Shown one piece after another: positions 16,481 through 23,534 of a DNA stretch of 34,100 nucleotides. The DNA comes from Candidatus Omnitrophota bacterium (GTDB lineage: Bacteria > Omnitrophota > Gorgyraeia > Gygaellales > Profunditerraquicolaceae). Location of the stretch: NCBI GenBank assembly GCA_016782485.1, contig JADHYK010000006.1, positions 1 through 34,100 on the forward strand. Reading direction: 5' to 3'. Position numbers and translations under genes: made by a program. Numbering within the stretch: the first letter of the stretch is position 1; each line of letters opens with the position of its first letter. Below the pieces are notes generated by a model. The model searched no databases. It saw only the letters and a list, made by a program, of their open reading frames with translations, and was not told the origin of the DNA.

Positions 16481-17608
16481 TTATCCTAAACTCCTGCGGA
16501 ACCTCAAGGTACTTAAAGTAATGATAAAGCAGCCCATGACCAGAAGCGGCAGGAGCTGCACCCAAATAATCTCAATGCCTACGCCTTTTAAAAAGATACT
16601 CCTGATTACCACCATAAAATAACGCAGCGGGTTTATAAAGGTAAACTGCTGGATGATTTTCGGCATATTCGCTATCGGATAGGCGAATCCGGAGAGAAGC
16701 ACCGTCGGCATATAGAAGAGGAAAACCGACATCATCGCCTCCTGCTGGGTCGAGGATATCGTGGAGATAAACAGGCCTATCCCTAAAGTGGTAAATAAAT
16801 ATATGCAGGTGGAAAACAGCAGTAAAAACAGGTTCCCCCTTAAGGGCACATGAAACCAGAGCACCCCCAGCGCGGTAATCAGGGCAATCTGGATCAGCGC
16901 GATTACCGCAAAAGGAAGGAGCTTGCCGATAATAAGCTCGATCGGCTTCAGCGGGCTGACCATCAATTGCTCCATGGTGCCGATCTCCTTTTCTTTGACT
17001 ATAGCCATGGCAGTCAGTAAAAGAGACATCATGGTTACGATGGTAGCGATTACCCCCGGCAGGTAATAGTTCCTTGAGACCAGGTTGCCGTTAAACCAGG
17101 CGCGGTCCCGTAAATCCACCTTGGGTATATTCGCTATTTCTTTGGTAGCCTCAATCTTCTGGTTCAGGAGGTATTGCTGGTAATTGCTGACCACGGTATT
17201 GGCATAACCCATGATAATCATCGTGGTATTTGAATCAGAGCCGTCATAAGCCAGTTGTATGGCGGCACTTTTTGAGGCATTAATGTCGCGGCCAAAACCG
17301 CGGTCTATATGGATGACTACGCTGGCTAAGCCCTTATCCAGGACTTGGTTCTGCTCCTCCTGGGTAAAGATATAGTGTTTGGGGACAAAATACTTGGAGT
17401 AGGTGAACCTGCGCAGCAGCTCCCGGCTTTCCGGCGTATTGTCCCGGTCGAGGATCGCGGTGGGGACGAAATTTATGTCTTTATTGGCGGCGTAGCCGAA
17501 GAGGATGATCTGAACCAGCGGGGTGATAAAAATAACCGTCTTCATCCGCGGGTCGCGGAAGATCTGTTTGAATTCTTTTACCAGGATCGCCATTGCCCGT
17601 TCAAACAT
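16481..17608 (-). CDS. ABC-2 type transporter permease (YhhJ/YbhR-like)
   Basis: N-terminal TM, large periplasmic domain, KEKEIGTMEQLMVSPLKPIELIIGKLLPF motif, five C-terminal TMs. Confidence 0.9.
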   Translation of the reverse strand: MFERAMAILVKEFKQIFRDPRMKTVIFITPLVQIILFGYAANKDINFVPTAILDRDNTPESRELLRRFTYSKYFVPKHYIFTQEEQNQVLDKGLASVVIHIDRGFGRDINASKSAAIQLAYDGSDSNTTMIIMGYANTVVSNYQQYLLNQKIEATKEIANIPKVDLRDRAWFNGNLVSRNYYLPGVIATIVTMMSLLLTAMAIVKEKEIGTMEQLMVSPLKPIELIIGKLLPFAVIALIQIALITALGVLWFHVPLRGNLFLLLFSTCIYLFTTLGIGLFISTISSTQQEAMMSVFLFYMPTVLLSGFAYPIANMPKIIQQFTFINPLRYFMVVIRSIFLKGVGIEIIWVQLLPLLVMGCFIITLSTLRFRRSLG

Positions 17609-17611
17609 AAT

Positions 17612-18754
17612 TTAGGCCACCTTTTTTTTGAACTTCTTCACCGCCAGGCCAAGCATCAGAAAAGCGAATAATAGCAGAAAAAGCCCCTCGTCCCACATCG
17701 TACGTATTCCGACGCCCTTTAAAAACAACGACCTTAAGATGACGATGTAATAGCGCGCCGGAATCAAATATGTAACTGCCTGTATAAACTTCGGCATATT
17801 AAAAATCGGGTAGATAAACCCGGAAAGAAGTATAGTCGGTATCATGGTGGTCAGGCTTGCCAATTGGCTGGCCATCAACTGCGTCTTGGCGACTACGGAA
17901 ATATAAATGCCCTGTGATAAAGCCCCGGTTAAAAACAGCACGCTGAAGAAGGCCAGCAGAAGGTAGCTGCCTCTAAAGGGGACACCAAATAAAAACCTGG
18001 CCATCACTACCCCCACCAACAGGTCAAAGGACCCGATGGCAAAATAGGGTATAAACTTGCCGATCACCAACTCCGGGGCTTTTACGGGAGTAGAGATCAA
18101 CTGTTCCATGGTCCCCCTCTCCCATTCCCGGGCAATGCAGAGGGAAGTAACCAATGCCGCGACAATCATAATGATTATTGCGATTACCCCCGGGACAATA
18201 AACCAGGTGCTGGTCAGGCCCATATTATACCAGATCCTCGAACGGGCATCCACTGATTCAGGGGCTGTAAGGCCTGCCTGAGCAAAGGTATCGGTCATAA
18301 GATTAACATTGTATTTGGAGACTACGGTCTGCACGTAGCCCCTGGCGATAAGCGCGGTATTGGCATCGCTTCCGTCTAATATTAACTGCAGCGGCGCTGG
18401 TTTACCGGACTCCAGATAATGAGAGAAATGTTTTGGAACAATCAAGGCCATCAATACATGGCCGCTGTCAATCATATGCTGGATATCGCGGTAGTTATCG
18501 CTATAGGTGACTATTCTGAAATACCTGGAATTTTTAAAATTCAGCAGAAAATTGCGGGTAAGCTCGGAACCTGCGTCCTGATTCCAGACTACCGTGCGCA
18601 CGTGGTCAATATCCAGGGAGAGCCCGTAGCCGAAGATAAAAAGCAGGAAGATCGGAATCGCAAGAGACAGTCCCAGCGAACGCGGGTCGCGCTTAATCTG
18701 CACAAATTCTTTCCAAGCTATGGCTTTAATTCTTATGAGGCTCTGTCTGGTCAT
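17612..18754 (-). CDS. ABC-2 type transporter permease (YbhS-like)
   Basis: Same architecture; REWERGTMEQLISTPVKAPELVIGKFIPY. Confidence 0.9.
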   Translation of the reverse strand: MTRQSLIRIKAIAWKEFVQIKRDPRSLGLSLAIPIFLLFIFGYGLSLDIDHVRTVVWNQDAGSELTRNFLLNFKNSRYFRIVTYSDNYRDIQHMIDSGHVLMALIVPKHFSHYLESGKPAPLQLILDGSDANTALIARGYVQTVVSKYNVNLMTDTFAQAGLTAPESVDARSRIWYNMGLTSTWFIVPGVIAIIIMIVAALVTSLCIAREWERGTMEQLISTPVKAPELVIGKFIPYFAIGSFDLLVGVVMARFLFGVPFRGSYLLLAFFSVLFLTGALSQGIYISVVAKTQLMASQLASLTTMIPTILLSGFIYPIFNMPKFIQAVTYLIPARYYIVILRSLFLKGVGIRTMWDEGLFLLLFAFLMLGLAVKKFKKKVA

Positions 18755-19676
18755 AATTTTCTATCGAGGAAACAAACACGTCTTCCAGGGAGGGAAGGAT
18801 TTTATTGACGCTAAACTCGCCTGCTTTCTCCTTCTCCAGAAAGTCCCTTATCGCAGGTATTGCCTTGGAGCTGTCATAGACAACCGTATGGATTGTCGCT
18901 CCGAAGAGCGCGGCCTCCTTGACCCCTTCAATTTTACTCACCCGGTCAAGCCAGTCCTGGGAATTAGGTAAGGCGATCTCAACCACTTCATTTTTCATGT
19001 TTTTGGTCTTCATCTCTTCCGGGGTTCCTGCGGCGATAATTGTGCCGTGGTAGATTAAAACCATGCGGTTACAGTTCTCCGCCTCATCCATATAATGCGT
19101 GGTGACAAAGATGGTTACCCCGTGAGAAGCCAGCTCTTTGATCGTGCCCCAGAAGTTGGCGCGGGTTATCGGGTCAACCCCTGAGGTCGGCTCATCCAGA
19201 AAGATGATCCTCGGCTTATGCAGGAGCGCGCAGCCCAGCGCAAGGCGCTGCTTCCATCCGCCGGCGAGCGTGGCGGTAAGACGCGATTCCATCCCTTCTA
19301 ACCCGGCGGTGTGCAGGGCAGCTGCAAAACGTTCTTTCTTTTCCTGAGCCGGAATCCTGTATATGCCGCTGTAAAAATTAATGTTTTCTTCCACGGTCAA
19401 ATCATTATAGAGAGAAAATTTCTGCGACATATATCCGATATGCTCCTTGATCTTATGCTGCTCTTTGATAATATCGTAACCGCCCACCGTGCCCGAACCG
19501 GAGGTGGGAGAAATTATCCCGCAGAGCATCCTGATGGTGGTGGATTTGCCCGCCCCGTTGGGCCCGAGAAAACCGAAAATCTCGCCCCTCTCTACTTCAA
19601 AGTTAATCCGGTTGACCGCGGTAAAATCGCCGAACTTCTTTTCCAGGTTCTGCACGCTTACGGCAATGTCATCCAT
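18726..19676 (-). CDS. ABC transporter ATP-binding protein
   Basis: GFLGPNGAGKSTTIRML Walker A, LAGGWKQRLALGCALLHKPRIIFLDEPTSGVDP. Confidence 0.95.
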   Translation of the reverse strand: MDDIAVSVQNLEKKFGDFTAVNRINFEVERGEIFGFLGPNGAGKSTTIRMLCGIISPTSGSGTVGGYDIIKEQHKIKEHIGYMSQKFSLYNDLTVEENINFYSGIYRIPAQEKKERFAAALHTAGLEGMESRLTATLAGGWKQRLALGCALLHKPRIIFLDEPTSGVDPITRANFWGTIKELASHGVTIFVTTHYMDEAENCNRMVLIYHGTIIAAGTPEEMKTKNMKNEVVEIALPNSQDWLDRVSKIEGVKEAALFGATIHTVVYDSSKAIPAIRDFLEKEKAGEFSVNKILPSLEDVFVSSIENYDQTEPHKN

Positions 19677-19689
19677 AATTATTCAATTA

Positions 19690-19748
19690 GCGGATAGCGG
19701 ATAGTAAAAGTTTCCCTATACGCTCTACGCTATACGCTCTACGCTATC
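19690..19748. repeat. Heptameric tandem repeats AGCGGAT x2 and AGCGTA(G/T) x4
   Basis: + strand AGCGGATAGCGGAT; minus strand AGCGTAGAGCGTATAGCGTAGAGCGTAT, containing the upstream ATPase stop codon. Confidence 0.75.
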
Positions 19749-20474
19749 CTTTTCGGTTTCATTTATTATCGCAATGAATGCCTCTTCCAGGGTCTTGACA
19801 TTACATTCTTTTTTGATCTTATCGGGAGAATCGCAGCGCAGAAGCTTGCCCTTATGCAACATGCCGACCCTGCGGCAACGCTCGGCTTCATCAAGGTAAC
19901 TAGTGGAGCAGAAAATGGTAACCTTCTCCTTAAGCAGCTCATATAATATATTCCAGAAATCCCTGCGGGAGACCGGGTCAACGCCGTTGGTGGGCTCATC
20001 CAGAAATAAGACGCGGGGGGTATGGATCAGGGCGCAGGCAAGGCCCAATTTCTGTTTCATACCTCCGGAGAGCTTGCCGGCAAAACGCTGTTTAAAGGGA
20101 AGAAGCCCGGAAAACCCGAGCAGGCGCTCGATATCTTGTTCGCGTTTTTCTTTAGCCACGCCGTAAACATCGGCGTAAAAATTGATGTTCTCCAAGACGC
20201 TTAATTCTTCGTAAAGCCCGAAACGCTGGGACATATAAGCGATGTTCTCTTTTAACGGTTCGGCTTCCTTCACGGTATGTTTGTTATAAACCCAGGCCTC
20301 GCCTTCGCTAGGGTCTAAAATTCCGGTTAAAAGGCGCATGGTAGTGGTCTTTCCTGCCCCATCCGGGCCGACCAGGCCGAAGATCTCCGCCTCTTCTACC
20401 TCTAAGTTCAGGTGGTCAAGGGCGGTCAATGCCCCGAATTTACGGGTAAGGTTTTCGGCTTTAATCGTAATCAT
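19725..20474 (-). CDS. ABC transporter ATP-binding protein
   Basis: GLVGPDGAGKTTTMRLL, KLSGGMKQKLGLACALIHTPRVLFLDEPTNGVDP. Confidence 0.95.
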   Translation of the reverse strand: MITIKAENLTRKFGALTALDHLNLEVEEAEIFGLVGPDGAGKTTTMRLLTGILDPSEGEAWVYNKHTVKEAEPLKENIAYMSQRFGLYEELSVLENINFYADVYGVAKEKREQDIERLLGFSGLLPFKQRFAGKLSGGMKQKLGLACALIHTPRVLFLDEPTNGVDPVSRRDFWNILYELLKEKVTIFCSTSYLDEAERCRRVGMLHKGKLLRCDSPDKIKKECNVKTLEEAFIAIINETEKDSVERIA

Positions 20475-21325
20475 TTTTCGGCAATCATTATATAGGCATC
20501 TGCGGGCATCCCCGGCTTTAAGTCCAGGCTGGAATTATCAACCCGCACCTTTATCCTGTAAACGTATTTGACTCTTTCTTCGGTAGTCTGGATGTATTTA
20601 GGGGTAAACTCCGTCTGTTCGGAAATGAATGAAATCCAGCCGTCATATTTCTTATCGCGGTAAGTATCAGTTTTGACGTATGCGCTCTGCCCTAATTTAA
20701 CCTTTGCCAGATCCCTTTCGTTAATATAAGCGGTCACCCAGATATCATTCAAATCGATTGCCGTAAAAACAGGCGCACCTATCTGCACCACCTCTCCGGT
20801 CTCTGCGCTCTTGGAGGTTACATAGCCGTTAAGCGGGGAGGCTAAACGCGCAAAACCCAGCCTCGTATTTGCCAGCTCCAGAGAGGCGCGCAGTTGTGCT
20901 ATCCTTGCCTTGGTGGCATCGGCTTTGGTCCTGGCCTCGTCTCTTTTCTGCACGGAGATTGCCCCGGCCTTCAGCAAGTTCTCTGCCCTGATATAATCGT
21001 CGTAATCCAGTTTATACTGCACCTCGGCGGCCTTAAGCGAGGCCTCCTGTTCTGCCTTTATCTTCTCCAGCTCATCGGTGTCCAGCCTGGCTACTATATC
21101 TCCGCGCTTCAGGAGTATCCCTTCATCGGCCAGAAGTTTTTCAATCTGGCCTTCGACCCGGAAAGAAATGCGCACCTCATTGCCCTCTATGTTTCCGGAT
21201 ACCTTGACGACGTTTTTATTCTTTTCATCCCTCTCCCAGATTGCAAAAAAGATTATGCCCGCAATTACGGCGGATAAAATTAGAGCGATGATTATTATTT
21301 TTTTAGTCGGTATTTTTTTCATCAC
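20471..21325 (-). CDS. HlyD-family periplasmic adaptor
   Basis: N-terminal signal anchor, biotinyl-lipoyl-like halves, coiled coil, RLGFARLASPLNGYVTSKSAETGEVVQIGAPVFTAIDLNDIWVTAYINERDL. Confidence 0.93.
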   Translation of the reverse strand: MMKKIPTKKIIIIALILSAVIAGIIFFAIWERDEKNKNVVKVSGNIEGNEVRISFRVEGQIEKLLADEGILLKRGDIVARLDTDELEKIKAEQEASLKAAEVQYKLDYDDYIRAENLLKAGAISVQKRDEARTKADATKARIAQLRASLELANTRLGFARLASPLNGYVTSKSAETGEVVQIGAPVFTAIDLNDIWVTAYINERDLAKVKLGQSAYVKTDTYRDKKYDGWISFISEQTEFTPKYIQTTEERVKYVYRIKVRVDNSSLDLKPGMPADAYIMIAEK

Positions 21326-22910
21326 TTGCCTCCTTTAACGGATACGCCCTGCCCATAGTCCGGTCTAATGCTGCCTCTGCCATAATATAATCATAAATGC
21401 CTTCGGAAAGATTTTTTTCTACCTGAGATAAAGCCACCTGCGCATCTAAAACATCCAGGTTAGTCCCTACGCCGTTGTCGTAACCAATCTCGGAGATCCT
21501 CAGCGCATCCTGGGCCTCTGCGATATTATCCTTCTGGGAATCGATAATCGACTGGGCCTTGACCAGGTCGAGGCAGGCCTTTCTTATGTCCACCGCCACC
21601 TGTTCAATCAAATCCTCCTTCGCAAGGTTGGCCTGTGCATAGCGGGCCTTTGCCTGCTCTACCTTTGACTTGGTATAAAAACCGTCAAATATCGGCATGG
21701 TAAAGGTTACGCCGATATTCCAGTTATTGTGCCTTTTGTTGAACATATCCCCCCAGTTATTCGAGATATAATCATATCCTCCGCCGGCATCAATCTGCGG
21801 CAGGCCGCTTGAACGGGCTACCTTAATCGCCCATTTCTTTATATCAATGCCCAGGGATCTCAAAATCATCTCCGGCATATTCAGGTATGCCTCTTTTAAA
21901 AACTCTCCTTCGTTAATATCAACCTGCCGGTAATCAAGTTTACCATCCGGCTCGATCGCATCCTGCATCTTTAAATAAAGCAGTTTTTTAAGCTCTGCCT
22001 TTATCAAATCAACCGCGGCCGTAGCTTTGACCAGCTCCGGCACCGTCAGGGAGACATGGACCTTTGACTGTAACAGGTCGAATTTAGAGGAGGTCCCGTG
22101 TTCAAATTTGCGTTTTACGTTTTGATAATGGTCCTCTGCCTGGTCCACCAGGTCTTGCATAATGCGTTCGGTCTCATACGCCAGAAGCAGGCCGTAAAAA
22201 AGCCTCTTTGCCTCAAATTCGATATCCAGCTTTTTAGCCCGCAGTGTCTCCTCCTGGGTAGTCAGCCCCAACTTTGCCATCGCTAATTTGGAGATGTTTG
22301 CCCCGCCGGTAAATATCGATTCATCAAAACTGACCCCCAATTGATTGTCATCCATAAAACCGGAAAAGATCCTGACATCTTTTTTGCCGCTGCCGCCGGA
22401 TTTTTCCAGCACTGCCCCGTTATGGGTATATGCGCTATCCAGGTTCAATTTGGGCATAAAGTTGCTTTTTGCCTCCAGTATCTGGCCCCTGGCAACCTGG
22501 ATCTCCTGTTCCTGAATCTGGATCTGCCTGTTATTCTCAAAGGCTATTGATATGGCATCCTTAAGCGACAGGAATAAGGCCGGATCGCTTTTATCCTGGC
22601 AATAAGAACCGCGGGGAAGAATAAAAATTGCCAGGAGTAAGAAAATTAAAGCGATAATACCTTCTGTCTTAAATAAAATACTCTTCAGCTCCTTATATAT
22701 AGGATATTCTTTATTGGCCCGGAAATATCTGGCGTTGGCCCTGAACTCGCTTAACAGTATCCCCTGACTCTCCATGGTATTGAGAGTCCTCTGGAAGACC
22801 CCCGGCTTCTTATGCAGAAACCTGCCGATCTGCTGCATGTAGAAAGACTCGTTGGGGTGGGTATAGAAAAGCTTCAGCAGTTTTGCCCTGTTTTTACTTA
22901 GCTCTTTCAT
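21303..22910 (-). CDS. Fusion: N-terminal winged-HTH + hydrophobic segment + TolC-family outer-membrane efflux protein
   Basis: Residues ~1-80 KNRAKLLKLFYTHPNESFYMQQIGRFLHKKPGVFQRTLNTMESQGILLSEFRANARYFRANKEYPIYKELKSILF are wHTH-like; IIALIFLLLAIFIL is hydrophobic; remainder is TolC/OEP-like. Single uninterrupted ORF. Confidence 0.85.
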   Translation of the reverse strand: MKELSKNRAKLLKLFYTHPNESFYMQQIGRFLHKKPGVFQRTLNTMESQGILLSEFRANARYFRANKEYPIYKELKSILFKTEGIIALIFLLLAIFILPRGSYCQDKSDPALFLSLKDAISIAFENNRQIQIQEQEIQVARGQILEAKSNFMPKLNLDSAYTHNGAVLEKSGGSGKKDVRIFSGFMDDNQLGVSFDESIFTGGANISKLAMAKLGLTTQEETLRAKKLDIEFEAKRLFYGLLLAYETERIMQDLVDQAEDHYQNVKRKFEHGTSSKFDLLQSKVHVSLTVPELVKATAAVDLIKAELKKLLYLKMQDAIEPDGKLDYRQVDINEGEFLKEAYLNMPEMILRSLGIDIKKWAIKVARSSGLPQIDAGGGYDYISNNWGDMFNKRHNNWNIGVTFTMPIFDGFYTKSKVEQAKARYAQANLAKEDLIEQVAVDIRKACLDLVKAQSIIDSQKDNIAEAQDALRISEIGYDNGVGTNLDVLDAQVALSQVEKNLSEGIYDYIMAEAALDRTMGRAYPLKEASDEKNTD

Positions 22911-22924
22911 CGTATCCGCCTATA

Positions 22925-22985
22925 TATGCATTTTGCATACAAATATATGCATTGTGAATATAATTATATGCATTTAGCATACAAT
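22925..22985. repeat. Three 21-bp-phased dyad iterons, probable operator array
   Basis: ATGCAT at 22926, 22947 and 22968. Dyads: TATGCATTTTGCATA, TATGCATTGTGAATA, TATGCATTTAGCATA. Confidence 0.88.
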
Positions 22986-22991
22986 TGTCAA
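22963..22991 (-). promoter_or_regulatory. Consensus sigma70 promoter for the efflux operon, overlapped by the iterons
   Basis: Minus strand TTGACA-N17-TATAAT, both hexamers perfect. Confidence 0.9.
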
Positions 22992-23028
22992 GAGAAATCT
23001 TGGGCCCTAAGGCCAAGATTTCTCTTGA
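22989..23028. repeat. 16-bp near-perfect palindrome at the -35 of the efflux promoter
   Basis: TCAAGAGAAATCTTGG...CCAAGATTTCTCTTGA. Confidence 0.85.
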
Positions 23029-23067: not shown

Positions 23068-23099
23068 TTACTCATATAGTATTTTATTGCGAAAAAAGA

Positions 23100-23134
23100 A
23101 AAGGGCGGTTCAGATTATCTGAACCGCCCTTTAC
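23100..23134 (-). terminator. Intrinsic terminator for the 23151-23534 gene
   Basis: Minus strand AAAGGGCGGTTCAGATAATCTGAACCGCCCTTTTCTTTTTT. Confidence 0.88.
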
Positions 23135-23150
23135 TGGAATGTATAAAGGA

Positions 23151-23534
23151 CTACTTTTCTTGATAAACGGTAATAACTTCGCCTGTATCCTGATCTACAA
23201 AGACCCAAACGTCTTTTGTAGGAGACTCTTCCGCAAAATCGAAAAATACCACTTGATACTTTTTCTCTACCAGTATGCCGCCCGGCAAATTGCCGTGGTT
23301 AGGGTCACTCGGCATCTCCTCTATCATCATAACCCTTTCTTCCCAAAGCGCATTCTCTTCGTCGTAGATAATCTCCACATCCTCCAGGACAATATCCGCA
23401 TCCTGCATTGCCTTTATTGCCACAGCCTTCAGCTGCTCTTCAGGTAACCCCTTCCCTACCTCTACCTGGGCAAATAAGGGCGATGATGCCAAAAGCAAAC
23501 CCAGCATCATTATTCCCGCCAGTAGCTTCTTCAT
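23151..23534 (-). CDS. Small secreted hypothetical protein, possibly PepSY-like
   Basis: Signal peptide MKKLLAGIMMLGLLLASSPLFA; SD AGGAGG; own promoter and terminator. Confidence 0.75.
   Translation of the reverse strand: MKKLLAGIMMLGLLLASSPLFAQVEVGKGLPEEQLKAVAIKAMQDADIVLEDVEIIYDEENALWEERVMMIEEMPSDPNHGNLPGGILVEKKYQVVFFDFAEESPTKDVWVFVDQDTGEVITVYQEK

Follow-up and report, generated by a model that had tools for sequence, protein, structure and literature searches.

Control of efflux genes by a repressor whose operator lies over the promoter is a general arrangement, and autoregulation of efflux is common. In the type IV toxin-antitoxin systems exemplified by AbiEi and Rv2827c, an N-terminal winged helix-turn-helix (wHTH) domain binds to inverted repeats that overlie its own promoter and represses the operon it belongs to (PMC3985639, PMC7319586). 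Membrane-anchored regulators such as ToxR and CadC combine a cytoplasmic N-terminal winged helix with a single segment that crosses the membrane and a C-terminal part that is exported and is a periplasmic sensor (PMC10269533); that survey of transmembrane transcription regulators makes no mention of TolC, MarR or ArsR. In the ybiH(cecR)-ybhGFSR operon of E. coli, which encodes an ABC-2 exporter, the regulator is encoded first, together with an adaptor, an ATPase and two permeases, and the pump is thought to use the TolC channel (PMC7190983).

The locus considered here, from a 34,100-nucleotide stretch of Candidatus Omnitrophota DNA (the window), has elements in common with each of these systems. 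As in AbiEi, a wHTH domain is predicted to act as an autorepressor, and relatives of this domain are also joined to a nucleotidyltransferase. However, AbiEi carries a C-terminal antitoxin domain and is accompanied by a separate toxin gene, whereas the partner here is an exported TolC channel, and the AbiEi operator consists of two long inverted repeats (23-3-23 bp) rather than the 4-11 short half-sites described below (PMC3985639, PMC7319586). In place of an antitoxin domain encoded beside a DUF1814 toxin gene, an outer membrane efflux protein (OEP) domain is found and the neighbours are efflux genes. As in ToxR and CadC, the structural model and the sequence point to a cytoplasmic wHTH followed by a membrane segment, a topology that is predicted; there is no periplasmic sensor, the C-terminal part being an outer-membrane channel with an export signal, and repression of its own operon is predicted. 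The operon resembles ybiH-ybhGFSR in exporter type and gene content and likewise encodes its regulator first, but in E. coli the regulator, CecR, is a soluble TetR-family protein in its own right and the TolC gene lies elsewhere, whereas here regulator and channel form one polypeptide (PMC7190983).

The wHTH-TolC fusion and its operon

The fusion gene is read from the minus strand, as is the operon that follows it, and begins with an ATG at 22910. Its wHTH domain (residues 1-84; 22659-22910), delimited with a structural model and homologues, contains the recognition helix KKPGVFQRTL (residues 36-48). The model has pLDDT values of 93-95 for residues 11-70, and its helix 72-97 continues into a hydrophobic export signal or anchor of about residues 85-104 (22599-22658), which is apparent from the sequence and is the point at which wHTH-less TolC orthologues start. 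The channel part begins at about residue 105 and extends through the stop codon (21303-22598). Both hallmarks of the TolC/OMF family are present in it, an OEP domain (PF02321, E 2e-75, 253 bits against a cut-off of 22) and the TolC fold (Foldseek, E 1e-22). In Foldseek, the closest structures to the wHTH model are regulators of the MarR/ArsR type, AntR and MepR among them, and its predicted fold is like that of the efflux repressors of this type (MepR, MexR, AntR). The likeness is one of fold: compared by sequence, the wHTH had no significant match in PDB or NCBIfam and only sub-threshold ones in Pfam (MarR_2, 13.8 bits against a cut-off of 27, E = 0.068), which places the domain outside the MarR family; in contrast to those repressors, it also has no separate dimerisation or ligand domain.

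Downstream lie genes for a membrane-fusion (adaptor) protein (20471-21325), a first ABC ATPase (19725-20474), a second, DrrA/RbbA-like ABC ATPase (18726-19676) and two ABC-2 permeases (17612-18754 and 16481-17608). Adaptor and first ATPase genes follow the intact fusions of relatives wherever the locus extends far enough. For the window, the possibility that TolC has an internal start was rejected, since codons 60-105 contain no in-frame ATG, GTG or TTG, which leaves the channel with no evident separate start; some relatives do have such codons in this region. No second member of the wHTH family was found in the source genome by homologue search.

An array of alternating half-sites over the promoter

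The original prediction described three copies of ATGCAT spaced by exactly 21 bp, each within a 15-bp dyad, TATGCA-N3-TGCATA, with a degenerate middle copy, and called them dyad iterons. ATGCAT does recur at 22926, 22947 and 22968, exactly 21 bp apart, and the three dyads are present, with no mismatch at 22925-22939 and one each at 22946-22960 and 22967-22981; the third copy as well as the middle one is thus off by one base. The 21-bp spacing holds for the window and not for all relatives, and the word iteron misleads for repeats, real as they are, that belong to no replication origin. What is conserved across orthologues is not the 15-bp dyad but a 5-bp half-site, TATGC, alternating with GCATA at start-to-start steps of 10 (sometimes 9) and 11 bp, which sets the units 20 or 21 bp apart. 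Half-site orientation flips about every 10.5 bp, giving one half-site per helical turn on one face of the DNA, and six alternating half-sites are the better description of the element. Among the half-sites of orthologues, the right half of the middle unit is usually the weakest.

Pattern and chain scans place these units on the minus strand as TATGC and GCATA in the -35/-10 spacer, touching the -10 (unit 1, 22967-22981); TATTC and GCATA just past the -10, over the predicted transcription start (unit 2, 22946-22960); and TATGC and GCATA in the 5' UTR (unit 3, 22925-22939), with 14 bp between the end of the final half-site and the ATG. The promoter, TTGACA-N17-TATAAT (22963-22991, minus strand), matches the consensus at 12/12 positions and is conserved in relatives, so that the perfect promoter and the position of the array over its spacer, -10, predicted start and 5' UTR were both correctly foreseen. 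When chains of alternating half-sites joined by 9-11 bp steps are scored, with TATGC, the half-site of the window, as the only one counted, the six consecutive half-sites of the array reach 13.4, while none of 5000 dinucleotide-preserving shuffles exceeds 8.6 (0/5000 as good). Elsewhere in the window every TATGCA-N3-TGCATA site has at least two mismatches (two or three), the total of loose matches being at the level of the shuffles, and a pattern scan of the source genome sequence examined (1.04 Mb, 90% complete) revealed no further dyad pair.

A terminator-like hairpin (23097-23135, minus strand) isolates the promoter from the upstream gene. That gene (23151-23534) encodes a small, secreted-looking protein of 127 aa with no Pfam match; several relatives instead have, at this place, a divergent gene whose product is about 152 aa long. 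At 22988-23028, two 16-bp arms (TCAAGAGAAATCTTGG / CCAAGATTTCTCTTGA) form a perfect inverted repeat around a 9-bp loop. The repeat adjoins and overlaps the -35 hexamer; inspection by eye showed no counterpart upstream in relatives, and the repeat is perhaps a site for a second regulator.

Orthologous fusions, upstream of which the dyads should be missing if the prediction were wrong, instead retain the array throughout. It stands directly before the start codon, over or beside the promoter, in 37/37 recovered Omnitrophota wHTH-TolC fusions, a number that includes three broken ones (L029, L031, L097), and its register with the promoter is nearly always fixed: in nearly all fusions the -35 hexamer lies 9-10 bp ahead of the first half-site. 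The hexamers are exactly TTGACA in 31 and exactly TATAAT in 27 of the 37. Six half-sites are present in most fusions, and eight or more in some. The fusion is also found in other families, among them that of Ca. Velamenicoccus archaeovorus, whose complete genome carries one (L179; NZ_CP019384, from about 255197).

Operator type and recognition helix

The same wHTH family is also joined to a small nucleotidyltransferase, sometimes within the same genomes as the fusions, and this provides another partner with which to compare operators. Across the phylum, most wHTH-nucleotidyltransferase genes (upstream regions L053-L072, L116 and L126-L165) carry a promoter palindrome that matches the class of their recognition helix. 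KPGxFQ helices go with TATGC/GCATA half-sites, VG(T/S)xHREL with GTTCTC/GAGAAC (7/7), PVSxxRKEL with ATTAC/GTAAT (12/13), DPGNLSKE with TACAATTGTTGTA (7/8) and DPKNTETK with ATGGTAA/TTACCAT (4/4), motif patterns that were drawn up after the sequences had been viewed and among relatives that are not independent. For the TATGC chain, 27/31 nucleotidyltransferase members with a KPGxFQ helix lie above the 99% shuffle level, against 1/58 with other helices, a very large contrast (Fisher p = 2e-17, a nominal value as relatives are not independent); the remaining 4/31 fall short of that level. By this comparison the operator follows the recognition helix and not the C-terminal partner, and its specificity matches the regulator's own DNA-binding domain. 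KPGxFQ nucleotidyltransferase records with TATGC sites bear labels that include Deltaproteobacteria, Aminicenantes, Stahlbacteria and Firestonebacteria, although some labels of metagenome bins may be wrong. Counted among the 31 KPGxFQ members is one record (L221:3001 onwards) in which a wHTH of the same type is followed by a different, possibly PAS-like part (208 aa from the match), with GCATA-N6-TATGT upstream; it is possibly a third kind of wHTH partner.

This swap of specificity between helix class and operator is the strongest evidence for the wHTH as the predicted ligand of the array. The encoded wHTH had been the candidate from the outset, and it gains support both from the pairing of helices with operators and from the same half-sites at nucleotidyltransferase genes with the same helix. 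Because the array follows the recognition helix and not the C-terminal partner, autorepression by the wHTH-TolC fusion is strongly supported, and the array is very probably the autoregulatory operator of a self-repressed pump operon. The operator also overlaps the promoter of its own gene, as that of an autorepressor does, both at the window coordinates and in the 37 fusions. A point against autoregulation is that the array persists in the three relatives with a broken fusion. Two of these are interrupted by a frameshift at the wHTH-signal junction (L029/L202) and by truncation after the signal (L031/L189), and near these two no gene for an adaptor or an ATPase was found.

Small genomes often have regulators in trans, and a separate, trans-encoded regulator could bind the array, the fused wHTH then being a relic or having another target. 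This is unlikely, since the half-sites track the KPGxFQ helix across phyla and C-terminal partners, and the array was not seen, by inspection, at four wHTH-less TolC orthologues (L015-L018). Nor does the wHTH resemble a relic: over 29 fusions it is in frame, with 57% mean column identity and invariant K35, P36, G37, F39 and Q40.

Repression or activation

If the fused wHTH is the ligand, it might still activate the promoter, or do so in one of two states, as activation is the mode of action of many one-component regulators anchored in the membrane (ToxR, CadC). Activation is judged very unlikely, however, because the sites extend over the spacer, the stretch past the -10 and the 5' UTR, and because most relatives have a near-consensus promoter, which should need no help. 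It is the position of the sites that argues for repression. A role for the repeats as RNA hairpins of the 5' UTR, in attenuation or translation control, is more improbable again: the dyad at 22925-22939 can form a hairpin near the start codon, but transcription starts downstream of unit 22967-22981, relatives lose or gain units without keeping a pairing partner, and the stability of the leader does not exceed that of shuffled sequences (z = -0.92), on which ground this role was dropped. Least credible is a chance repeat or an artefact of an AT-rich promoter. The AT-richness of the array and its partial overlap with TATAAT speak for this reading, but the shuffles and the chain scan of the fusion loci, with the array conserved in every fusion and no dyad pair elsewhere in the genome sequence examined, already refute it.

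In the favoured reading, autorepression by the fusion, wHTH domains would bind the alternating TATGC half-sites, one per helical turn and probably cooperatively, and would line one DNA face all the way from the -35/-10 spacer into the 5' UTR. Their occupancy would keep RNA polymerase off a promoter that is otherwise near-perfect, and the operon for channel, adaptor, two ATPases and two permeases would in this way repress itself.

Origin of the fusion and additional arrays

In a tree of wHTH domains, which has few columns and modest resolution, the TolC fusions fall on one side of a branch in 93% of bootstrap trees. It is likely that a TolC gene captured a KPG-type wHTH once, along with the operator type. 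Fusions typically have six half-sites, compared with typically four at nucleotidyltransferase genes (Mann-Whitney p = 6e-11, nominal), and it might be expected that a membrane-bound repressor needs more cooperative sites.

The chain scan also detected an additional array, of four or five half-sites and 0.4-1.2 kb upstream, at 5/30 fusion loci, and none in reversed and shuffled controls of the scanned 173 kb. A further second array, in G010, was found by pattern, and in L174/G031 an extra pair adjoins the main array. The second TATGC arrays (L119:2521-2556, L120:2463-2498, L125:2578-2613, L123:2405-2440, L124:1318-1353 and L122:1637-1672) lie mostly between converging gene ends, that of L122 being the exception. 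Because those of G026, G010, G029, G096 and G100 are so placed, where no promoter is expected, they fit auxiliary operators better than promoters of other genes, a reading that was considered, and their position suggests that they act by looping. The window has no second array, by chain scan at a loose threshold. In G079 and G017, arrays occur away from the fusion. Arrays off the fusion promoter lie at L118:2288-2323, in the gap between the end of an efflux operon and a phosphofructokinase-like gene, and at L121:218-253, on a contig without a fusion, and are possible further targets.

A proposed repressor on an export signal

The fate of the wHTH during export of the channel is less certain than the block of polymerase. 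The wHTH may stay in the cytoplasm as the leading portion of a signal anchor, and signal peptidase may free the channel and leave a wHTH-membrane stub in the inner membrane. The most likely scheme is that each stub would report one exported channel, so that repression would rise with channel number; stub turnover, membrane stress or a ligand of the wHTH are candidates for its relief. The full proposal is tentative, if quite possible: a repressor built into the signal peptide of the channel, whose peptidase-cut stub would count exported channels, or whose uncleaved precursor would report blocked export, and which would feed back on the pump operon and in some species also loop DNA to a second array 0.4-1.2 kb away.

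A wHTH-TolC fusion was not found in the open-access literature, which is weak evidence of absence, and a TolC channel with its own DNA-binding repressor before the export signal is undescribed in the open-access papers searched. What is new here is a DNA-binding domain that is predicted to form the cytoplasmic N-terminus of an outer-membrane channel precursor. Such an arrangement would link gene control to the export of the same polypeptide, and it raises the question of the fate of a wHTH carried on a signal peptide. The pairing of recognition helices with operators may in turn be read as a small natural recognition code with many members.
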